A program made the translations under genes and the position numbers. Of a stretch of 64,000 bases of DNA, positions 36,492 to 55,576 are shown piece by piece. How positions within the stretch are numbered: position 1 is the first letter of the stretch; each line of letters begins with the position of its first letter. Source of the stretch: Oscillatoria sp. CS-180 (GTDB lineage: Bacteria > Cyanobacteriota > Cyanobacteriia > Phormidesmidales > Phormidesmidaceae); NCBI RefSeq assembly GCF_028330965.1, contig NZ_JAQMUB010000037.1, positions 186,001 through 250,000 of the forward strand. The letters are read 5' to 3'. The notes beneath the pieces are model-generated. The model did not search any database. It saw only the letters and a program-made list of their open reading frames with translations, and was not told the DNA's origin.

Positions 36492-38591
36492 CTACTCAAG
36501 CTCCCGAGGATCTTCCGGCCAAATCACCACTAGTGCGTTTGAGTTGCCTGCCCCAAATCCTACAATGGATGAGAAAAGTTGTGGGGTTCCCTCTACAGCC
36601 ATTCTCAAGAGAGGTGCACCGCAGTATTCGCCGGCATCTGCAATTTCAGTCTGATAGAGACGTGAAAGCGTTGACGGAACGAAGTCGAAGCTTTCAGTCA
36701 TCACTAGGGCATCCTTGGCCGCACTCACAGGGACAGGACCGGTTTCGGGGGTTAGATCAGCTAGAAAGCAGCTTTGGTCGATGCCAGTTGGCCAGCCATC
36801 TGCGATCGCATCAGCAGCAATTTCGGGTAGCGCATTCAGACTGCCCACGGAGTTGTTGAGCACATTGATTCTGCCAGCTTCAATCAGTTCCGCCTGCTTC
36901 TCAGGATTGAACGCAACTAGCTCAGACACAGGCACGGCATCGTCAGAGTCGCCAGAGTCAGTATCACTAACCCTGGTCCTTGAAGTATTGGAAGTCCTGG
37001 CCGAGTTGCGGTTTTGGGGCGTGGCCGGACTGGTCGCTGCGGCTACTTCGGGAGTCCGGGTCGATTGATCTGTTACGTCTTGTTCTTCTTCAGTGGCGGC
37101 TGTTTCGTTTTCCTCTGCTGGAGCATCTTCAGTGCTTTGTTCTGGACGTCTGCCGTTAGCGGCGGTCGTTGTCGGTGTTTCAAACTCGTCGGAGTCCAAA
37201 GTCTGGCAGTTGACCGCGTTGTAGTCCACTTCCACTTCAACAACATAAACTTGTGGTGTTTCAGCTTCAGGGAAGTCAACGTTTTGGACCAGCTCTAGGG
37301 AGCGATCGTCAAAATCCTGATAGCCCGTTGAGCGCAAGGGCTGAGGATCACCGACTAGGACCCCGTCTGGACCCACTACAACACCCCATTCGGCATCTTT
37401 AGGGGCGATCGGCAGGCAAATGCCCAACGGGTAGGGAACTTTCTCTTCAAGATCGTCCAGTATCTCTACAGCCACGCTACTAGCCTGCGAAGCGTCCTCT
37501 CCTTCTGTTGCCTCCGGAGCTGTCTCGGCTGCGGGAAGCTCAATATCTTCAATTTCGCTGAGGGCTTTTAACCAATTTTCGCGAGCGGTTTTAGCCTCAG
37601 CTGGTGTAGTCAGGTCAGGACCAACGTAGTCATCGAGAACAGCAAAGTATTCGTCTGGAATCTTTTCAATCGAAGGTGGCCATTCACAATCTTCAGCATC
37701 GTAGTCCACTGCAATTTCTGCGAGATAGGCTTGGGGTGCATCCGAATCAGGAAAGTCATAGCTATCAAGCAGCTTTAGGGCTTCCCGGTCAAAGTTGCGA
37801 TAGCCGGTCCTCTGCACAAACTGCTTGTATTCATCAACTGTGCCGTCTGCATCCACTAAGACCAGAATCTCCGCTGCTGTAGGGTCACCGGGCAGACAAA
37901 TATTGGCTTCGTAGGGCAGGTCGTCAAAATCATTGAGTGGCTGGATTTCTAGATCGGTGAAGGCGGCACCGCGATCGCTAAAACTCTCTATCCAGGACTC
38001 CCTCAGATCTGTCGCTTCAGCCTCAGCAATCTTGACGCCATTGTAGGCACCAAAAACGGCTACATACTCCTCAAATGCCTTCTCCGGGGAATCAGCAAGC
38101 GCCTGTAGCGGCGGCGCAGTAACGTTTGGCGGATCGGTATTAGGATTCTGGACAGTGTCAGCAGCGGGAGAGACCTGAGGCACTCTACCTTGAGAGCGGG
38201 AGGAACGATTGTCTGAACTGGATGCACCGGTGCGATTACCTGTCCTACTGCTACGAGTGCCACTACGATTTCCTCCAGAACGGGACGCGCCACCACTGGT
38301 CCCTGCTGCCGCATTGGCTCGGGCTTGAGTGGCGGGAGTAGTGGTTGGGTTGGTTTTAACTGTGCCTGTATTAGCAGGTGCCGCAGCCCTCGGACGAGGC
38401 CGAGGGGGATCAACCTTAGTTATGGCAATACCTGTATCTTCTGGATCAGGCGGCGGCACAAGATCATCTTCAGAAGGCGCCACCGGAGTAAACAGGACCA
38501 ATCCATGCAGCCCTAGGGATGCTAAAAGCATCGGAGGCAATAAAAAATACCAAAGCGGTTTTTTCTTAGTTGGTTTAGGGGGCAGATTCAT
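36492..38591 (-). CDS. TonB-like protein with tandem repeats (large)
   Basis: 699 residues from ATG at 38591. Short basic N-terminus, one membrane segment (~13-34) with S25-x3-H29, the motif through which TonB contacts ExbB/ExbD, then PPPDPED/PRPRPR and a Ser/Gly/Arg-rich linker. Two related modules, ~229-302 and ~389-462, share ICLP, (S/T)GY-x-(N/D)FD, an FP turn and V-DY(D/N)A plus two Cys; their pattern resembles the TonB C-terminal fold. The last ~100 residues (C608, EYCG at 655-658, final DPR) match the end of the neighbouring TonB-like protein. Last gene of the cluster. Confidence 0.75.
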   Translation of the reverse strand: MNLPPKPTKKKPLWYFLLPPMLLASLGLHGLVLFTPVAPSEDDLVPPPDPEDTGIAITKVDPPRPRPRAAAPANTGTVKTNPTTTPATQARANAAAGTSGGASRSGGNRSGTRSSRTGNRTGASSSDNRSSRSQGRVPQVSPAADTVQNPNTDPPNVTAPPLQALADSPEKAFEEYVAVFGAYNGVKIAEAEATDLRESWIESFSDRGAAFTDLEIQPLNDFDDLPYEANICLPGDPTAAEILVLVDADGTVDEYKQFVQRTGYRNFDREALKLLDSYDFPDSDAPQAYLAEIAVDYDAEDCEWPPSIEKIPDEYFAVLDDYVGPDLTTPAEAKTARENWLKALSEIEDIELPAAETAPEATEGEDASQASSVAVEILDDLEEKVPYPLGICLPIAPKDAEWGVVVGPDGVLVGDPQPLRSTGYQDFDDRSLELVQNVDFPEAETPQVYVVEVEVDYNAVNCQTLDSDEFETPTTTAANGRRPEQSTEDAPAEENETAATEEEQDVTDQSTRTPEVAAATSPATPQNRNSARTSNTSRTRVSDTDSGDSDDAVPVSELVAFNPEKQAELIEAGRINVLNNSVGSLNALPEIAADAIADGWPTGIDQSCFLADLTPETGPVPVSAAKDALVMTESFDFVPSTLSRLYQTEIADAGEYCGAPLLRMAVEGTPQLFSSIVGFGAGNSNALVVIWPEDPRELE

Positions 38592-38703
38592 GGCAGTTTG
38601 CGATCGCAATTTTGAGTCAAATCCAGTCGCTCGTGAGCAGTTAACCGACTTTCAAGTTTCACACAGCGGAGAAGCTTTTTCTAGCTAGCGGACCTATCAG
38701 CGT

Positions 38704-39579
38704 TTACACACGGGGGTCCGACGTCCAAAAAATCAGGAGAATTGCCCCTGGTGGGCTGCCAGGGCCTATGCCTATGGTCGAAACATAGATTCCCGTCGTT
38801 GCTCCTCCTTCCTGGACTTCATAAAGGGGCATTCCGCAGTACTCAGCCGTTGGAACCACCGTCTGTCCAGCAAAGGTTTGAGGCAAGTCTTCACTGACTA
38901 CTAAACCATAGTTACGCACTAAGTATTTCAATCGATCAGCTCTGGGGTCTAAGACGAATGAGCTCTCTTCAATAGATGAGAAAAAGCAGCTTAGTGTTTC
39001 AGGTGCCCAACCGCCTAGATAAGTTGGCGAATTGTCTCCTGTGGGATTCCAGGCATACAAGGGAAAATAGTCAGTCTGGTCAAACTCGCGATTGATGGCA
39101 CCTGTTTGCCCCAGCAGAGTTTGCTGTCTAGCCAGATCAAATCCAACTGGAGCCTCTTCTTCAGGAAAACCATTCTCTTCGGGAAAGTCTTCTTCGATAA
39201 ATTGCTCCTCAGGTGGCAGTTCCTCTACCTGGGTGGGGTCAGGTGGAGGGGGGACGGCATCAGGCGGAGGGGCTTGCTGCTGAGGCTGAGGCTGCTCTGG
39301 TGGTGGCTCGGCAGGTGGTTCAGGAATTTCAATGTCTGAGAGACTGAGGATATCAATCGGCTCCTCATCGTCAACTTCTTCAATCTCGTCCTCAGCCGTC
39401 TCTTCCTCCGCCACTTCTCTGGAGGGAAGCGGGACAAAGAGCAAAGCAATGTGGAGAACGATAGAAATGCCCATAAGTGGCGCAATTAGCCACTGCCAGC
39501 GCCAGGTCAACTTCTGCTTGGATGCAGATGCAGGAATATTCGATGGGTCTGCGGATTCTAAGGTCTCTAATTCAGACAT
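38704..39579 (-). CDS. TonB-like protein (small paralogue)
   Basis: 291 residues. Membrane segment ~28-50 with S39-x3-H43 as in TonB, then an acidic and Pro/Gln-rich periplasmic linker (EIPEPPAEPPPEQPQPQ), and a C-terminal domain ~185-291 sharing GW, SCF (C198), EYCG-x-PL (C248), a G-x-G-x-G stretch and a W-x2-DPR end with the larger protein downstream. The Cys spacing (50) is nearly the same as in the paralogue (49). No classical TonB C-terminal YP motif. 112 bases before the next gene, same strand. Confidence 0.75.
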   Translation of the reverse strand: MSELETLESADPSNIPASASKQKLTWRWQWLIAPLMGISIVLHIALLFVPLPSREVAEEETAEDEIEEVDDEEPIDILSLSDIEIPEPPAEPPPEQPQPQQQAPPPDAVPPPPDPTQVEELPPEEQFIEEDFPEENGFPEEEAPVGFDLARQQTLLGQTGAINREFDQTDYFPLYAWNPTGDNSPTYLGGWAPETLSCFFSSIEESSFVLDPRADRLKYLVRNYGLVVSEDLPQTFAGQTVVPTAEYCGMPLYEVQEGGATTGIYVSTIGIGPGSPPGAILLIFWTSDPRV

Positions 39580-39952: not shown

Positions 39953-40867
39953 CTACATTGCACCAATGATCTCAAGATCATCATCGTAAGCATTTTCCTC
40001 AAGTGGAACATAACCCACTTCAGTGATGATGTCTGTATCACGAGCCGTCTCTAGGTAATACTCAACAAATGCACGAACCTGAGGCTCATCTAGAGATGCA
40101 GGGTTAACGTAGATGTATAGAGGACGAGCCAGAGAGTAGTCACCGCTCTTAGCATTTTCAGGAGTTGGCTCTACACCATCGACGGGTAGTGCACGTAGCT
40201 CATCATCGTTCTCTAGGAAATACGCTAGACCAAAGTATCCCAGAGCATTAGGGTCGCGAGAGACACCCAATACCAAGATATTGTCATCTTCACTAGCAGT
40301 GTAATCAGCGCGGCTAGCACCCTCTTCACCGTTGATTTCATCTGTAAAGAAGTCAAAGGTACCCGAGTCAGTACCAGGACCAAACAGACGGATAGGCTGG
40401 TTAGGCCAGTCAGCGTTCACCTGATTCCAGCGAGTCACTGTGCCTTCTGCCTCAGGAGCCCAGATCTTGTTGAGCTCGTCAGAGGTAATAGCAGTCAACC
40501 AGTCGTTATCTTGATCAACAACGACGGTTAAAGCATCAGTACCAACGAGTAGTTCGATTGGCTCGATGCCGTTTTCAGCACAAGCATCCAGTTCTTCTTG
40601 CTTCACAGGGCGAGAAGCATTGGAGATGTCAGTTTCGCCTGCGCAGAACTTACGAAAGCCGCCGCCAGTACCAGAAACGCCGACGGTTACGCGAGCGTCG
40701 GGGTTCTCTGCCATGAATTCCTCAGCCATCGCTTCACTGATGGGGAAGACAGTACTAGAACCATCGATCGCAATGTCCCCGGATACCTGAGCAGAAGCGG
40801 AAGTTCCCAGACCAACTGTTGCCGCGATTGCAAAAGCACCGGCAACTTTAATTCCATTAGCAAACAT
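39953..40867 (-). CDS. Periplasmic phosphate-binding protein, PstS/SphX type
   Basis: 304 residues from ATG at 40867 (GGAG 8 bases upstream; a GTG at 40876 is less likely). Signal peptide ending TSASAQ. Phosphate-site motifs: DGSSTVFPI (~37), [24 protein letters not shown] region (~75-98), and [12 protein letters not shown] (~180). No pstCAB nearby; it lies inside an ExbBD/TonB cluster. Pho-box-like repeats upstream suggest induction by phosphate shortage. Could also bind another oxyanion. Confidence 0.88.
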
Positions 40868-40969
40868 ACAGCACACTCCGTAGAGCTATCAAAAACTCAA
40901 AGCCACCGAGTAAGGTATCGGTTCAAGATTAAAAGCGACTGCAACAAAGCCCAAGAGAAGTTTTTGAAT

Positions 40970-40988
40970 TGGTTAAATTTGGCTTAAT
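40970..40988 (-). promoter_or_regulatory. Pho-box-like direct repeat upstream of pstS (site 1)
   Basis: On the gene strand: ATTAAGCC, 3 bases, TTTAACCA; 11-base period, like cyanobacterial SphR/PhoB boxes (consensus near CTTAACCT). About 100 bases before the start codon. Confidence 0.5.
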
Positions 40989-41079: not shown

Positions 41080-41098
41080 GATTTAATGTCAGGTTAAA
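41080..41098 (-). promoter_or_regulatory. Pho-box-like direct repeat upstream of pstS (site 2)
   Basis: On the gene strand: TTTAACCT, 3 bases, ATTAAATC; same 11-base period, one good and one weak half. About 215 bases before the start codon. Confidence 0.4.
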
Positions 41099-41163: not shown

Positions 41164-41583
41164 TTACTCGACGGCCAAAGAAACTTGGTTACCACCAATA
41201 TCCCGTAAATCGGTTAAAAAGGCCGCTACTTCGTTGTAGGGCAAGTCTTTATCGGCTTTAAGAACTAACTTACCCTCTGGATTTTCTGAAAAGTAAGTCC
41301 GGATACGCTGAGTAAGCTGCTGAAAGCTAATTGTTTGATCCTCAAACAAAATTTCGCTGTCACTATTTAATCCAATAATTAGCGTCTCTTCTTCGATAGC
41401 CTGCTCCGCAGTTTCTTCGTCCGTGCCCTGGACATCATCGGGAATATCAATACCAATTAGCTGTCGTCCCGTTAAGGTCATTGAGATGATGACGAAGAAC
41501 GTCAGCACCGTCATCAACACGTCCATCATGGGGACGAGGTTGACTTCAGGCACCTTGGAAGCAGGATTACGGCGAGAACGCAT
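41164..41583 (-). CDS. exbD: ExbD-type proton-channel subunit (canonical Asp present)
   Basis: 139 residues from ATG at 41583. VNLVPMMDVLMTVLTFFVI has Asp21 at the start of its single membrane helix, the residue that carries protons in ExbD/TolR. The periplasmic part ends LPYNEVAAFLTDLRDIGG, as usual. Third gene of the cluster, 41 bases after its paralogue. Confidence 0.88.
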   Translation of the reverse strand: MRSRRNPASKVPEVNLVPMMDVLMTVLTFFVIISMTLTGRQLIGIDIPDDVQGTDEETAEQAIEEETLIIGLNSDSEILFEDQTISFQQLTQRIRTYFSENPEGKLVLKADKDLPYNEVAAFLTDLRDIGGNQVSLAVE

Positions 41584-41624: not shown

Positions 41625-42041
41625 TCATTCTTCGATCGCCAGTGACACGCGATCACCTCCAATCTCACGCATTTCCCCTAAAAACTGCATAACTTGTTCA
41701 TAGGGCAATTCGCGATCAGGCAAGAGGTAAACCACGTGATCGTCATTCCTAGTCAAGTGAGATTCCATCTGGGCTTTCAACGATTCTTTGTCGGTCGGTG
41801 TATTGTTGAGCCTAAACCCCCCATTAGCGTCCATCTCGACGATGAAAGGTTGGGTCGTAACGGGTTGGGGAGGTTGTTCTTCTTCCGGTTGGGCCGCAGG
41901 CAGCTTCATATCAATCATTTCCTCGTTGCCCAACGTCATGGTGACCACGACGAAGAAGGCTAAGACCCCCATCATGACAGTCAGCATGGGGACCAGATCA
42001 ACCTGAGGTGGGGGCGTGTCTCTACTCTCTCGAAAGCGCAT
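41625..42041 (-). CDS. ExbD-type protein with Thr in place of the channel Asp
   Basis: 138 residues from ATG at 42041. VDLVPMLTVMMGVLAFFVV aligns residue for residue with the paralogue, but position 21 is Thr (codon ACT at 41979-41981). The periplasmic domain is otherwise normal (LPYEQVMQFLGEMREIGG). It probably cannot carry protons alone and may pair with the canonical ExbD in a mixed dimer. 27 bases after exbB. Confidence 0.85.
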   Translation of the reverse strand: MRFRESRDTPPPQVDLVPMLTVMMGVLAFFVVVTMTLGNEEMIDMKLPAAQPEEEQPPQPVTTQPFIVEMDANGGFRLNNTPTDKESLKAQMESHLTRNDDHVVYLLPDRELPYEQVMQFLGEMREIGGDRVSLAIEE

Positions 42042-42068
42042 GATCAATGCCTGAAATAGTTCCAGTCC

Positions 42069-42767
42069 TTAGTATCGTTCAGCAATAAATGCTTCGGGGC
42101 GAGGCGGATCTGTTTTCTGACCGTCCAGGGCTGCTACCGCTGGTTCATACCAATATTGGCGATAGATCAGCTCAAGCTCGTTGCCTGCCTCCGAGAAGTA
42201 GTCCATCTGCTGGGCCTGAAAAGTCACCATTACTCGAAAAACCAGCAGTGCCATGATTGCTACGACCATTCCAGCCGCAGTTGTGATTAGCGCTTCCCCA
42301 ATACCTGCTGCTGCTTGGGACGTATCGGTACTGCCGCCACTGCCAATATTCAAGTTGTTAAACGTCGCAATGAGACCCGTGACAGTGCCTAGCAGTCCCA
42401 ATAGGGGTGCGATCGCAACAATCGTCTCTAAAATCTTGTCCCCACGCCGCATCTGAGCAAACTCTTTATCGCCCGCGTTTTCTAGCGCCAAACGAAACGT
42501 TTCGGGCGAGGGATTTTTAAGCCGCAGAGGAGCCAATAGAAAGCGACCGACAGCGGTATCTCTGGCTTGAGCCGCGATCGCTGCTGCTTCATTCAAATCT
42601 CGACGAGCTGCATCCAAAACCTGATTAACAACTTCGGTTTCTCGCTGTAATAAACGTGTCCAGAACCAAGCTCGCTCAAACCCGGTAGCAATTGTTAAGA
42701 CAGAACAGCCTAGGATGGGAACCATCACCGGACCGCCTTTCGCTAAAAAATCAAATACAGTTGTCAT
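42069..42767 (-). CDS. exbB: ExbB/TolQ/MotA family proton-channel subunit
   Basis: 232 residues with three membrane helices. LLGLLGTVTGLI (~120) and GIGEALITTAAGMVVAI (~155) carry the conserved Gly/Thr of the channel. N-terminal helix MVPILGCSVLTIATGFERAW (~14-33). First gene of the cluster. Confidence 0.92.
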   Translation of the reverse strand: MTTVFDFLAKGGPVMVPILGCSVLTIATGFERAWFWTRLLQRETEVVNQVLDAARRDLNEAAAIAAQARDTAVGRFLLAPLRLKNPSPETFRLALENAGDKEFAQMRRGDKILETIVAIAPLLGLLGTVTGLIATFNNLNIGSGGSTDTSQAAAGIGEALITTAAGMVVAIMALLVFRVMVTFQAQQMDYFSEAGNELELIYRQYWYEPAVAALDGQKTDPPRPEAFIAERY

Positions 42768-42898: not shown

Positions 42899-42917
42899 AG
42901 TTTAACGGAAGATTAAG
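42899..42917 (-). promoter_or_regulatory. Pho-box-like direct repeat upstream of exbB
   Basis: On the gene strand: CTTAATCT, 3 bases, GTTAAACT; 11-base period, 1 and 2 mismatches from CTTAACCT. About 135 bases before exbB. Chance matches in AT-rich DNA are possible. Confidence 0.35.
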
Positions 42918-42966: not shown

Positions 42967-43067
42967 TAAGGAACGGGAACTTCTTTAAGTATCAACTTTG
43001 AGCTTTGGATTCGCCGATAACTCAATCATTCAAAACTCAAAACTGAGAACTTGAAATTCATTCCTAA
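42967..43067 (-). repeat. ~101-bp dispersed repeat, copy B
   Basis: Inverted copy of 36292-36396. Its outer end meets the stop codon of the DUF4333 lipoprotein gene, as copy A meets the stop of the lipase-like gene. Confidence 0.9.
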
Positions 43068-43798
43068 TCATCATCTCCGGGGACTCGCGGGCGCTCAACC
43101 TGTCGAGTACCGGCTTTCTTTTCTGTGCTTTCACCACTAGCCGCCTGAGGATTACCGGTAGAAGCTGCTGCCCCAGGTGTCGGTGTGGCCTGCCCTGATG
43201 CTCCTGATGTGCTTCCAGTCGTGCCCGTTGCCGCACTGGTTGCTGCATTAGCTACGGGCGCGATCGCGTCTCGTACCTCATACCAGTTCAGATTACCTTC
43301 GGGGTCAACTTTGACCAAAAGCGCTGTAATCTCGTCCTGTTCGACGGTTACTCCGCCAACGACCTCACACTCAAACTCCTCACCTGGCTGATTTAGCCGA
43401 TACATATCTCCGCAGTTGAGGGAAGCTCGCCTAGAAAATGCTTTGGCAAAGTCTTGCTCAAGGTCTTCTTCAATCTTGGCGACGTTGAGAATAACTTGAG
43501 AATTGGGCACGTCCCATTCTATGCTGCCCTGACTGTCTCTTTGCGTCACGTTGATGGTGAATTGCCCTTCAGGTCTTAGATAGCCAACACAGCGAAAATA
43601 AGCACCGGCCTGTCGATAGATGTTACGGGGGCAACGAACTTCAGAAATAGAGAGCCGTCGACTTTGACTCTCGATCTCAGCTTCAATTTCCTGCTCAACA
43701 GCGGTTGCGTTGAGACGATTGAAACAGCTTGTCAGCGTTAACAGCCCACCGGCCAAAAGAACCATACGGGAGAGAGAAGACATAGATGTTCGTTGCAT
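43064..43798 (-). CDS. Lipoprotein with two DUF4333-like domains
   Basis: 244 residues. Lipobox LTLTSC (Cys ~25) predicts a lipid anchor. Two repeats, ~28-98 and ~103-172, each with a pair of Cys (VRCP...FRCVGY; LNCGDMY...FECEVVGG) and a closing strand ending NW-Y or EWDV, as in DUF4333. The C-terminal ~60 residues are Ala/Thr/Gly-rich and disordered. Upstream of and co-directional with the exbB cluster, but separated by repeat B. Confidence 0.75.
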   Translation of the reverse strand: MQRTSMSSLSRMVLLAGGLLTLTSCFNRLNATAVEQEIEAEIESQSRRLSISEVRCPRNIYRQAGAYFRCVGYLRPEGQFTINVTQRDSQGSIEWDVPNSQVILNVAKIEEDLEQDFAKAFSRRASLNCGDMYRLNQPGEEFECEVVGGVTVEQDEITALLVKVDPEGNLNWYEVRDAIAPVANAATSAATGTTGSTSGASGQATPTPGAAASTGNPQAASGESTEKKAGTRQVERPRVPGDDD

Positions 43799-51943: not shown

Positions 51944-54900
51944 TTAACCCTGCTCGGCTCGTTCTCGACATCGCTCTAAATAGCTTTGCGCCACCGTGTC
52001 AGAAGGACAAATCTCTAAGCAGTGTTGAAATTTCTGAAGCGCATCGCCATAGCACTGCTGGTTGTATATAGCCAAAGCTTGCTCAAACAAGGTACGGCTT
52101 TTGAGCTTGCCTTCCCGCTGCTCTGGCGGGTCGGGATCAAACACTTCATATACGCTAATGTAGGCAATTTTGCCTTTGGCTTGCACACGGTCAATCACTC
52201 GCATGGCGTAGTCGTTGGGATTGCTGAGCTGAAGAAAGGTGTGATGAGAAATCAATAAGTTGACGTCATAAAAGCGAGTCATACGCTCGATGCGAGAAGC
52301 TACATTGACGGTATCGCTGATGACGGTGCTATCCATGCGGTTGCATCCACCTACAGTGCCCAACATCAGAGAGCCTGTGTTAATGCCAATGCCAATTTCG
52401 ATAATGGATTTACCGTATTCGCGTCGTTTCTGATTGTACTGATGCAGCCGTTTAAGCATGGCGACGCTAGCTTGCAAAGCATCATCAGCGCCACGGCTGA
52501 ATAGCGCCATGATGGCATCACCAATGTATTTATCAATGAAACCGTGATTTTCAGAAATTGCTGGTTCCATGCGAGATAGAAAGGCATTGATAAACTTGAA
52601 GTTCTGTTCCGGTGTCATCTGTTCTGACAAGCTGGTAAAGTCGCGGATGTCGGCAAACAGAACGGACATGTGCTGCTGAACTTGGTCGCCTAGCTCAACC
52701 TCAACAATGCTTTCTTTGTTCAAAAATTGCAAAAACTCACGAGGGACAAAGCGACCGTAAGCCTGGTTAATTTTGGCGAGATATAAATGGGTCTTGAGGC
52801 GGGCTACTAACTCGCTTTTTGAAATGGGTTTGGTTAAATAATCGTTGGCTCCGGCGGAAAGTCCTTCTACCAAGCTACTGACTTGGTTCTTCGCTGTCAG
52901 CATCACAATGGGCAGACTGTGGGCAGGATAGGTTTCTCGCAGCTTGCGACAGACTTCAAAGCCTGTCATCCGGGGCATCATGACATCTAATAGGACGATG
53001 TCAGGTTGAACACCGTCTTCGATGAGGGCCAGAGCTTCAGGACCATCAGCAGCCTGCACCACCCGATAGTTTTGTACCGATAGATGGTTCATGATGACTT
53101 GACGGTTGATGGGCTCATCGTCAACAACTAGCACCATATGCTGTTGCTGAGCCATCACACGCATTGTGCCATCGTGTCCGTTTTCACCATTGGGCATCTC
53201 TGCATACCCTAGCTGGGAGGGTGAAACGGCTTGAATAGGCCAGCGAAAGTCGACAGGGGACTCTAGATTGGATTCTTTTAAGAGGACCTGTTCAACTTCG
53301 GGGCGATCGCTGATCAATCGACCCGCTTCCGGTGAAACAGGGAGGGTGAATGTGAACTGCGAGCCAACCCCTACTGATGAAACCACCTTCATCGTGCCGC
53401 CTTGAAGCTCGACTAAGCGTTTGGTAACCGCCAAACCAATTCCCATACCGCCATAGATGCGGCTGGTGGAGCCATCGGCTTGGACAAAAGGTTCAAAGAT
53501 CCGATGTAGCTTATCTTCGGGAATCCCCGTTCCCGTGTCAGAAACAGTGATGGCTAAGTAGTAATTGGAATTGGAAGAAAAGTCATCTGGAGCGATCGCA
53601 GTCAGAACGGTGTCCTTCTCCACCAAAACAGCCGTTTCAGCGTGGCCGTTGCCGTTTATTTCAGTGTGCGTATTAGCGACTTCAGCATGGCCATTGCCGT
53701 TCATTTCAGTCGGGTGAGTGTTAGCAGCTTCAGATGCTTCAGATAATGAAGCTCCATTGCAGGTTGACGGCACACGAGACCGGACTGCCAAAGAACACGC
53801 ATCTGGATTTTTGATGATCTGAGCAGAAATACCCACCATCCCATACTCGGTGAACTTCACCGCATTGCCGACTAAGTTGTGGAGAATTTGCTGTAGGCGA
53901 TTTTCGTCTGCCAGAGCAGGAGGCAGTTTGTGAGAGACAGCGTTGATGAGCTGAACTTGTTTCTGATGAGCCAGCGGACGGCTAAGCGTGATCACAACTT
54001 CAGCCGCTTCTCGAATGCCAACGGGGCGGAGGTTGATGTCAACTCGATCGTGTTGAAGTTGAGAAAAGTCCAAAATGTCATCGACTAAGGCAGACAGGCG
54101 ACGTCCGCTAGCGACAATCATGGCAAGGTTGCTCTTTGTTTGGCGAGGCAGCGGACCACTGACTCCATCAATTAGGGATTCTGCTAGACCGATAATGCCG
54201 TTGAGGGGCGTTCTCAGTTCGTGAGAGGTGTTGGCCAGGAATTCGTCTTTGAGCTTGTCAATCCGCTTAAGCTCCCGGTTGTGGTCTTCTAATTGCTCAA
54301 ACGACTGCTTGATTTGCTGAGCCATACTTTCGAAGGATTGAGATAGCTCGGTCAATTCCTGAAACCGACCGTTGGGCAGCGAAGTCTCCCAAGTTCCCAC
54401 GGCTAGCTTTTTCGATGCTTCACTAAGGCGATAGATAGGTTGTGCTACCCACCGGGCTGTGATGCCTGCAATCACACTGGCAACGATAAGGGATAAGAGG
54501 CAGAGTATCAGGGTATTGCGGGTGTTTTCTGCAATCTGTCCCTTAAAGTCTGATTCGGGAATGATTGTTACGACCAACCAGTCAAGTCCTCTGCCATCTT
54601 GAAAAGGGACGACTTGAACGAGCTGTGGTTCTTGAGCCGATTCGAAGGTGAACTGTTCGGCATCATCAATGTTCCCTAAGCTGCCAAATTTTTGGGTCAG
54701 ATGCTGGGTTGTCTCACGAATGATGGGTTCCGTGCTGGCTGTCGCATTCAATCGTGTTTGCTCGCCTGTGCCGGAGGTCAAAAACGGGAGTTCATCGGTG
54801 GAGGTGGCCACAATGTTTCCGGTGCGCTCAATAATGAACGCTTCGCCGCTGGCACTGATGTCTATCTTGCGCAAATAGCTGCTAATTTGCTCTAGTGTCA

Positions 54901-55576
54901 GGTCCAGGGCAATCACACCCTTGAGTTCGCCGCGATCGCCATGAATGGGGGCTGCTAGCGTAATCCCCAACACAGAATAATCCTGGGAGGCGAATTCATA
55001 AATAGGACTCCAGCTCGTATGGCGATTGGTGACAACGGCTCGATACCAAGGACGCTCCCGAGGGTCATAATTTTGCGAACCAATTTCCTCTCGCCGCTGA
55101 CCTGACTCATTCAGGCGATAGGTTAGCCGCTTTGGTGCGGTTTCTTCGGTGACTTCCCAGAGTACCTTTTTCCCATCATCTCGTTTCTGAACCCCTAAAA
55201 ATCTGCCGTCAGGATATCCCAGATAAATACTTGTAATTCCTTCCGAGACCTGAATTTGATGCCAAAAGTGCCGCGCTACGACATCTGGATTGGACAATGG
55301 CACATCCCCGTGAAACAAGTTGCTGCGACTGTCACGCTGAAGGAGATTGGGTTGCAGAAGGTAGGTATGAAGATGTTCTTGAATACGGTTGGTCGCTCGG
55401 GTGCTCAGCTGAGTCGCTAAATCATCGATCGCCTTTTGCCCGTTTCGCCAAGAGAGAGCTGTTGTTAGCCCGACTGCTGCTGCAATTTGCACCACAAAGG
55501 ATACAACCAAAACGACCCGCAGTGGTAGTTTCTGAGTCAGATTCAGCACCGAGTGCAAAGTGGGTTTTGAAGACAT
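51944..55576 (-). CDS. Membrane hybrid histidine kinase with nucleotidyl-cyclase output
   Basis: 1210 residues. Membrane helices ~18-42 and ~354-376 enclose a dCache sensor (DPRERPWYRAV, ~171); HAMP; HisKA with SHELRTP (His452); HATPase with LVGNAVKF (~568), DTGTGIP (~680) and GMGIGL (~710); REC ~813-935 (Asp864, Lys916); class III cyclase ~970-1145 (metal Asp976 and Asp1020, Lys1016); short TPR-like tail. The layout resembles CyaC-type adenylyl cyclases of cyanobacteria, activated through the receiver. ATP rather than GTP use is likely, not proven. A duplicated linker sits inside the HATPase domain (618-648). Confidence 0.92.
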   Translation of the reverse strand: MSSKPTLHSVLNLTQKLPLRVVLVVSFVVQIAAAVGLTTALSWRNGQKAIDDLATQLSTRATNRIQEHLHTYLLQPNLLQRDSRSNLFHGDVPLSNPDVVARHFWHQIQVSEGITSIYLGYPDGRFLGVQKRDDGKKVLWEVTEETAPKRLTYRLNESGQRREEIGSQNYDPRERPWYRAVVTNRHTSWSPIYEFASQDYSVLGITLAAPIHGDRGELKGVIALDLTLEQISSYLRKIDISASGEAFIIERTGNIVATSTDELPFLTSGTGEQTRLNATASTEPIIRETTQHLTQKFGSLGNIDDAEQFTFESAQEPQLVQVVPFQDGRGLDWLVVTIIPESDFKGQIAENTRNTLILCLLSLIVASVIAGITARWVAQPIYRLSEASKKLAVGTWETSLPNGRFQELTELSQSFESMAQQIKQSFEQLEDHNRELKRIDKLKDEFLANTSHELRTPLNGIIGLAESLIDGVSGPLPRQTKSNLAMIVASGRRLSALVDDILDFSQLQHDRVDINLRPVGIREAAEVVITLSRPLAHQKQVQLINAVSHKLPPALADENRLQQILHNLVGNAVKFTEYGMVGISAQIIKNPDACSLAVRSRVPSTCNGASLSEASEAANTHPTEMNGNGHAEVANTHTEINGNGHAETAVLVEKDTVLTAIAPDDFSSNSNYYLAITVSDTGTGIPEDKLHRIFEPFVQADGSTSRIYGGMGIGLAVTKRLVELQGGTMKVVSSVGVGSQFTFTLPVSPEAGRLISDRPEVEQVLLKESNLESPVDFRWPIQAVSPSQLGYAEMPNGENGHDGTMRVMAQQQHMVLVVDDEPINRQVIMNHLSVQNYRVVQAADGPEALALIEDGVQPDIVLLDVMMPRMTGFEVCRKLRETYPAHSLPIVMLTAKNQVSSLVEGLSAGANDYLTKPISKSELVARLKTHLYLAKINQAYGRFVPREFLQFLNKESIVEVELGDQVQQHMSVLFADIRDFTSLSEQMTPEQNFKFINAFLSRMEPAISENHGFIDKYIGDAIMALFSRGADDALQASVAMLKRLHQYNQKRREYGKSIIEIGIGINTGSLMLGTVGGCNRMDSTVISDTVNVASRIERMTRFYDVNLLISHHTFLQLSNPNDYAMRVIDRVQAKGKIAYISVYEVFDPDPPEQREGKLKSRTLFEQALAIYNQQCYGDALQKFQHCLEICPSDTVAQSYLERCRERAEQG
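53633..53725 (-). repeat. Tandem duplication inside the kinase gene
   Basis: Two ~46-base units code ANTHPTEMNGNGHAEV and ANTHTEINGNGHAET, an in-frame duplication in a ~70-residue insert between the N and G1 boxes of the ATP-binding domain. Confidence 0.85.

Follow-up and report, generated by a model that had tools for sequence, protein, structure and literature searches.

An ExbD pair in which one copy lacks the proton-carrying aspartate suggests a lopsided, one-site motor in many cyanobacteria

Many cyanobacteria carry a pair of ExbD proteins of which one has lost the proton-carrying residue of the family, and this arrangement suggests a lopsided, one-site motor that is probably tied to phosphate starvation. 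The pair described here, ExbD-a and ExbD-b, is found in Oscillatoria sp. CS-180, within a window of 64,000 nucleotides (the term is used for the whole stretch of DNA that was analysed; features in Table 1). On the minus strand the critical codon of exbD-a reads ACT (agt on the plus strand), which specifies Thr21, counted from the ATG at 42041, in the motif DLVPMLTVMMG; ExbD-b, counted from the ATG at 41583, has Asp21 in the same motif, NLVPMMDVLMT. Thr21 aligns with the Asp of PFIDV in solved ExbD chains (7ajq, 6tyi), that is, with Asp25 of E. coli ExbD. An earlier note on this DNA had reported Thr at the proton-carrying position of one ExbD and Asp in its neighbour, both at residue 21, and codon, translation and alignment to solved chains all bear this out. 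Absent from that note were an Asp at position -6 of ExbD-a (Asp15) and coupled changes at +4 and +7, all numbered relative to the proton site.

Both proteins match the Pfam ExbD family PF02472, ExbD-a with 81.6 and ExbD-b with 88.6 bits (cut-off 25.4). The best NCBIfam equivalog for both is TIGR02801 (tolR), with scores of 50.5 and 56.8 bits, respectively, below the cut-off of 127.3. The transmembrane Asp that carries the proton in ExbD/TolR proteins is present in ExbD-b (Asp21) and missing from ExbD-a (Thr21); among six ExbD matches in the Oscillatoria sp. CS-180 genome, ExbD-a is the sole one without it, the five others having Asp at the site. Judged from its sequence, ExbD-a is an ExbD homologue and presumably not a functionally complete ExbD. 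It is nonetheless predicted to keep the periplasmic ExbD/TolR fold, as in an AlphaFold2 model (mean pLDDT 70.8) the periplasmic domain matches ExbD 8vgc (E 5e-5, TM by target 0.77). A TTG at 42047 is a possible alternative start of exbD-a, and a longer start of exbD-b at 41628 would give a 4-base overlap with exbD-a.

Table 1. Features of the exbB-exbD-pstS region in the window (positions are those of the window).
Feature	Position	Strand	Remarks
exbD-a, ExbD-family gene without the proton-carrying Asp	41625..42041	-	138 aa from ATG 42041; PF02472; predicted ExbD periplasmic fold; clade mostly Asp-less
Codon ACT, Thr21 (position of ExbD Asp25)	41979..41981	-	from sequence and alignment
Codon GAT, Asp15 (-6)	41997..41999	-	Asn in most Asp-bearing ExbD of the set; invariant in 22 family rows of alignment A1
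Codon GGG, Gly25 (+4)	41967..41969	-	Thr/Ser in most Asp-bearing ExbD of the set
Codon GCC, Ala28 (+7)	41958..41960	-	Thr in most Asp-bearing ExbD of the set
exbD-b, ordinary Asp-bearing partner	41164..41583	-	139 aa from ATG 41583; PF02472 88.6 bits
Pho-box-like TTAA-N7-TTAA upstream of exbB	42902..42916	.	
Pho-box-like TTAA-N7-TTAA between exbD-b and pstS	41083..41097	.	
Second Pho-box-like TTAA-N7-TTAA upstream of pstS	40973..40987	.	
exbB, MotA/TolQ/ExbB channel subunit	42069..42767	-	232 aa; PF01618 113 bits, cut-off 22.9
pstS-like phosphate-binding protein	39953..40876	-	TIGR02136 305.1 bits, cut-off 206.6; PF12849 152.1 bits
TonB-like transducer 1	38704..39579	-	291 aa; predicted N-terminal helix with SxxxH, acidic/proline-rich linker, C-terminal domain
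TonB-like transducer 2	36492..38609	-	705 aa; weak TonB C-terminal-domain matches just under cut-offs
DUF4333 protein	43064..43798	-	PF14230 37.3 bits; often found next to exbB on its upstream side in the family (synteny)

The Asp-less copy is widespread. When 63 genomes of the window's family were searched with the ExbD-a protein, close orthologues (at least 48% identity, full length) were clearly separate from other ExbD, and ExbD-a could be typed in 48 genomes, with Thr in 38, Asn in nine and Asp in one; in a further genome (G016), outside the 48, it is a contig-end fragment. Outside the family but within the same class, 42 ExbD-a were typed, with Asn in 21, Thr in one and Asp in 20. The site Asp is thus absent from 47 of the 48 family copies and from 22 of these 42, which come from among the best listed matches to an Asp-less ExbD-a profile and are not a census, or from 69 of 90 in total. 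In all 69, which were fetched by homology and not by residue pattern, the replacement is Asn or Thr. The 64 genomes typed outside the family comprise 20 with an Asn/Asp pair (ExbD-a residue first), one with Thr/Asp, 14 with Asp/Asp, seven with ExbD-a and no typed ExbD-b (Asn in one and Asp in six, one of the seven lying beside a truncated ExbD-b) and 22 with neither. The conservation of the Asp/Thr pair across cyanobacteria, which the earlier note had asked about, therefore extends to the family, where both copies were typed in 45 genomes and 44 of these are Thr/Asp or Asn/Asp, and breaks down beyond it in the 14 Asp/Asp genomes. Asp in both copies of homologous clusters, which the note had named as the sign of a local mutation, is found in the family in a single genome, G045. 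Because Asp/Asp pairs exist outside the family, the Asp-less copy is a clade-level trait and not a universal one.

A pattern scan adds named carriers in Leptolyngbya, Nodosilinea, Phormidesmis, Acaryochloris, Petrachloros, Oculatella, Gloeocapsopsis, Coleofasciculus, Symploca and Spirulina, the strains Leptolyngbya sp. PCC 6406 and Nodosilinea nodulosa PCC 7104 being among them; its patterns had Asn or Thr ([NT]) at the site, and these genomes stand outside the counts of 48 and 42 and inside the tree counts given below. Seven viral stretches matched a pattern and none was confirmed as a relative, and a plasmid search returned nine records with one place each, the annotation of the two examined showing no tandem ExbD pair. 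In one locus a third, truncated ExbD-like frame without the part of the helix that holds the Asp site lies between ExbD-a and ExbD-b (L187, 5423-5773; the same gene occurs in L059 and L047).

On a quick tree of 227 distinct ExbD (three of 230 were left out: L047 and L133, which have no site, and L057, a fragment), all Asp-less rows but one fall inside a clade of 105, the ExbD-a clade, in which 42 rows have Asn, 41 Thr and 22 Asp. Its 83 Asp-less members, some of which come from the scan with [NT] patterns, thus all have Asn or Thr. The outlying row (L209, Asn) is placed among ExbD-b rows on a long branch and has a-like residues at +4 and +7. A careful tree of 102 rows, built with the trait columns removed, gives the ExbD-a clade a support of 100/99 from a bootstrap that had not settled; here the ExbD-b rows form a grade and not a clade. 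Three changes between Asp and non-Asp suffice on this tree, which is compatible with one early loss of Asp and later returns. A single base change leads from Asp to Asn, and another from Asn to Thr (ACC, ACT); the Thr codons are mostly ACG (30 of 41), which needs one extra silent change. The ExbD-a of G045 (L227, 4745-5158), the only Asp-bearing one among the 48 family copies, is of the a type except for its transmembrane block, which is b-like, and its Asp is best read as a probable product of gene conversion. Mean similarity of ExbD-a to its own ExbD-b in the transmembrane block is 0.765 for Asp types, 0.626 for Asn and 0.587 for Thr, the higher likeness of the Asp types being expected of Asp/Asp pairs anyway.

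The loss of Asp goes together with other changes in the transmembrane helix. Within the ExbD-a clade, position +4 is Thr or Ser in 17 of 22 Asp-bearing rows and Gly or Ala in 81 of 83 Asp-less rows; position +7 is Thr in 20 of the former and Ala or Gly in all of the latter. Positions 0, +4 and +7 would share one helix face. Few parts of ExbD-a are as conserved as this helix, in which P18, M19, L20, V22, M23, G25 and L27 to V31 are invariant in alignment A1. In the window's family all 47 Asp-less ExbD-a typed also have Asp at -6, where ExbD-b has Asn, and for this reason the subunit that the earlier note had called silent can be described only as presumably silent. The gene as a whole is conserved about as strictly as its partner, under purifying selection. 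Across 44 family genomes in which both are complete, mean pairwise identity is 0.604 for ExbD-a and 0.601 for ExbD-b. When comparisons are limited to sequences 70-99% identical, dN/dS has a median of 0.10 for ExbD-a (106 pairs) and of 0.13 for ExbD-b (112 pairs), values that are rough as synonymous distances are large.

The window's gene order is UbiD (on the opposite strand), a DUF2887/DUF4351 gene, DUF4333, exbB, exbD-a, exbD-b, pstS and two TonB-like genes. The pore residues of ExbB are nearly invariant in the aligned rows (Thr128 in 118 of 118, Glu158 and Thr163 each in 117 of 118), and we take T128, E158 and T163 to be the counterparts of E. coli T148, E176 and T181. The 291-aa TonB-like protein has no Pfam or NCBIfam match; its C-terminal domain is modelled with pLDDT near 90 and has no PDB match with E < 0.1. 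Ser39 and His43 are invariant in nine aligned sequences of this type, and the Ser/His pattern SxxxH is the motor-binding motif in the N-terminal helix of TonB (PMC12204202, in the part available). The 705-aa protein scores 21.5 bits against PF13103 (cut-off 22), 21.4 against PF03544 (24.6) and 24.1 against TIGR01352 (27.1). In the distant relatives L200, L201 and L215 the exbB, ExbD-a, ExbD-b, PstS-type and TonB-like genes also occur together, but in many others they do not. Elsewhere in the window (51944-55576) a protein of 1210 aa joins dCache, HAMP, histidine kinase, receiver and adenylate/guanylate cyclase domains in one chain.

ExbD-a and ExbD-b tend to occur in the same genomes. Of the 63 family genomes, 45 carry both, three ExbD-a only, four ExbD-b only and 11 neither (Fisher, p 6.5e-7), and the association holds within the genus g7 (15, 0, 2, 9; Fisher, p 1.8e-5), both tests being on related genomes in which few events may be involved. 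Two of the ExbD-a-only cases are at contig ends (G005, G012) and one is in a genome 78% complete (G008). Those with ExbD-b only are G016, with the contig-end fragment already mentioned, G050 (69% complete), where ExbD-b lies elsewhere and exbB has no ExbD in the following 1.2 kb, and G020 and G028, in which neither ExbD-a nor an exbB orthologue was found. Among the 11 with neither, G018, G029 and G049 are 61-84% complete, and eight related genomes carry a solo exbB with an unlinked, Asp-bearing ExbD of a third type in a separate supported clade (L256-L263; L228, L231-L233, L242-L245). The solo exbB has UbiD and DUF4333 as neighbours in five of these, is cut off by a contig end in two and stands without these neighbours in one; a single event may account for all eight double absences. 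The two copies share one locus in 28 of the 45 genomes with both, and in the other 17 ExbD-b is apart from ExbD-a, with no exbB in the stretch read around it, and exbB adjoins ExbD-a. In four genomes (G001, G007, G037, G045) pstS and two TonB-like genes come after the unlinked ExbD-b, in the window's order. Co-occurrence, a shared exbB and equal constraint make the mixed ExbD-a/ExbD-b dimer, as proposed in the earlier note, the best reading of these sequences.

A link to phosphate is suggested by the neighbouring genes and by short repeats. Repeats of the cyanobacterial Pho box are set apart by a gap of 3 bp, and TTAA-N7-TTAA was taken as its core spacing. The 64 kb window contains four such sites, three of them in the exbB-pstS cluster (one before exbB, two before pstS). 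Of 46 family genomes, 26 have the site ahead of exbB, as do 10 of 37 others, compared with 11 of 267 random windows; other TTAA spacings from 3 to 17 occur before exbB in at most three of the 46 and four of the 37. The TTAA-N7-TTAA site precedes exbB in seven of the nine family genomes whose exbB has no adjoining ExbD, and none of 19 unlinked ExbD-b genes. It is also found before exbB of Asp-bearing pairs, and hence is independent of whether Asp has been lost. The Pho box has been described as consisting of CTTAACCT repeats (PMC1906773) with, in cyanobacteria, conserved TTAA cores (PMC11126600). The candidate sites in the window have two repeats each, compared with the three 8-bp repeats with a TTAA core of the SphR/PhoB box in the accessible text of these papers, whose main texts never mention exbB, exbD or TonB. 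Given PstS and two TonB-like proteins in the cluster and Pho-box-like repeats before exbB and pstS, a role of the exbB-ExbD-a/b cluster in phosphate starvation is likely, and the cluster may be under Pho control.

We hypothesize that ExbD-a and ExbD-b pair up as one axle, each providing one half, within an ExbB pentamer that they share. The helix of ExbD-a would have been stripped of its proton-handling face (Asp to Asn or Thr, Thr/Ser to Gly/Ala at +4, Thr to Ala at +7) and would be permanently neutral there, its periplasmic domain retaining structural work in dimerisation and in contacts with TonB-like proteins and the wall. ExbD-b alone would be protonatable, leaving the axle with a single proton site in place of two. 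In rotary models of ExbBD and MotAB the two Asp of the dimer take turns, with one 36-degree step per proton (PMC9022066, as far as its text was available); a single-site axle would not be able to alternate in this way and might make one powered stroke, or use one proton, per two positions. Such a motor would probably drive the TonB-like transducers together with the PstS-type protein under phosphate starvation. We regard this reading, of a mixed single-site axle within a shared ExbB pentamer probably serving such a system, as the probable one, with modest confidence. Its fullest form, a natural single-site 5:2 proton motor with an obligate ExbD-a/ExbD-b axle advancing two positions per proton, an ancient loss of Asp to Asn and later to Thr, and a cyanobacterial Ton-like system for phosphate starvation made up of PstS and unusual TonB-like transducers, is put forward tentatively, as possible and rather doubtful. 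Several observations count against a mixed axle: the Asp/Asp pairs in 14 typed genomes outside the family indicate that two sites are compatible with the same architecture, the co-occurrence is phylogenetically non-independent, four genomes have ExbD-b and no whole ExbD-a, and the lack of a Pho-box-like site before all 19 unlinked ExbD-b genes is a poor fit to a fixed 1:1 pair. In addition, E. coli ExbD(D25N) is called inactive (PMC11658791, in the portion available), so that a motor with one neutral subunit might stall as well.

Several known systems are comparable. The ExbB5-ExbD2 Ton motor of E. coli and Serratia (6tyi, 7ajq) has the same families and domain layout, with a sequence match from residue 12-13 to the C-terminus, but identical ExbD copies that both have Asp25, in place of two paralogues of which one has Asp. 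The AglR-AglQ-AglS gliding motor of Myxococcus likewise has one ExbB-like and two ExbD/TolR-like genes (PMC9389320; gene table in PMC3169522); heterodimer formation by AglQ and AglS is called unknown in the accessible text of PMC9389320, where both are predicted to have the conserved Asp, unlike ExbD-a of the window. TPH-vWA proteins with TolQ-like pentamers are putative axle subunits, also mainly from heterologous gene pairs, but have one Asp per monomer and hence a pair in the axle, and vWA domains replace the ExbD periplasmic domain (PMC12204202, available sections). In CjMotB D22N, a protonation mimic, Asn occupies the proton site as in Asn-type ExbD-a (PMC9022066, PMC9389320, in part); that is a laboratory substitution, whereas the Asp-less ExbD-a is a natural, conserved paralogue state. 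TonB-like proteins of Anabaena are cyanobacterial transducers too, some without a role in siderophore uptake, and the study in its available text describes no ExbD-a/ExbD-b pair (PMC8597729). In the literature covered, mainly openly accessible journal papers and some of them in part, we found no account of a normal ExbD whose partner is a conserved Asp-less copy. If the mixed axle is true, a conserved natural axle with one Asp would mean that alternation of two Asp is not essential; it would also offer a ready-made asymmetric motor whose subunits are distinguishable and singly mutable, and point to a trans-envelope system of cyanobacteria that is energised, linked to PstS and probably responsive to phosphate.

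Among the alternatives, ExbD-a might act as a brake or as an assembly reserve, either by forming a non-conducting ExbB5:a2 complex of its own or by sequestering ExbB, and ExbB5:b2 would be the working motor. Researchers in the field use Asn to mimic protonated Asp (the CjMotB substitution just cited), in the 17 genomes with ExbD-b elsewhere exbB is linked to ExbD-a alone, and as Pho-box-like sites precede exbB-a and not unlinked ExbD-b, phosphate starvation could raise ExbD-a relative to ExbD-b. However, a common locus in 28 of 45 genomes suits a fixed ratio, and equal constraint and joint absence from eight genomes suit a joint complex better than a decoy, so that we regard a brake or reserve as unlikely. 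A second possibility, which we consider quite improbable, is that the proton site has moved and Asp15 of the family ExbD-a carries the proton at a shifted depth. Besides its invariance in the family alignment, Asp stands at -6 in 40 of 41 Thr-type rows, compared with Asn in 116 of 121 Asp-bearing rows outside the ExbD-a clade; yet four of the latter also have Asp there, and 18 of the 42 Asn-type rows keep Asn at -6, so that Asp-less ExbD-a exists without a relocated acid and a relocated Asp at -6 was rejected as a general rule. It is more improbable still that ExbD-a acts through its periplasmic domain only, as an adaptor to the wall or TonB-like proteins with its helix outside the ExbB pore: the model of that domain matches ExbD structures, but the strong conservation of the helix and its coupled changes at 0, +4 and +7 are what would be expected of a helix packed in a pore. 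Finally, a local mutation or decaying pseudogene is ruled out by the absence of Asp from 69 of 90 ExbD-a and the family median dN/dS of about 0.10; the one point in its favour is that a single Asp-less locus (L198/L083) reads with frame breaks. At that locus, in G297, a frame of 294 aa spanning a and b domains was considered as a natural fusion and rejected, as the open frame contains neither the usual end of ExbD-a, which is in the next frame, nor its usual start, which is in a different one; it probably reflects frame breaks from sequencing errors.
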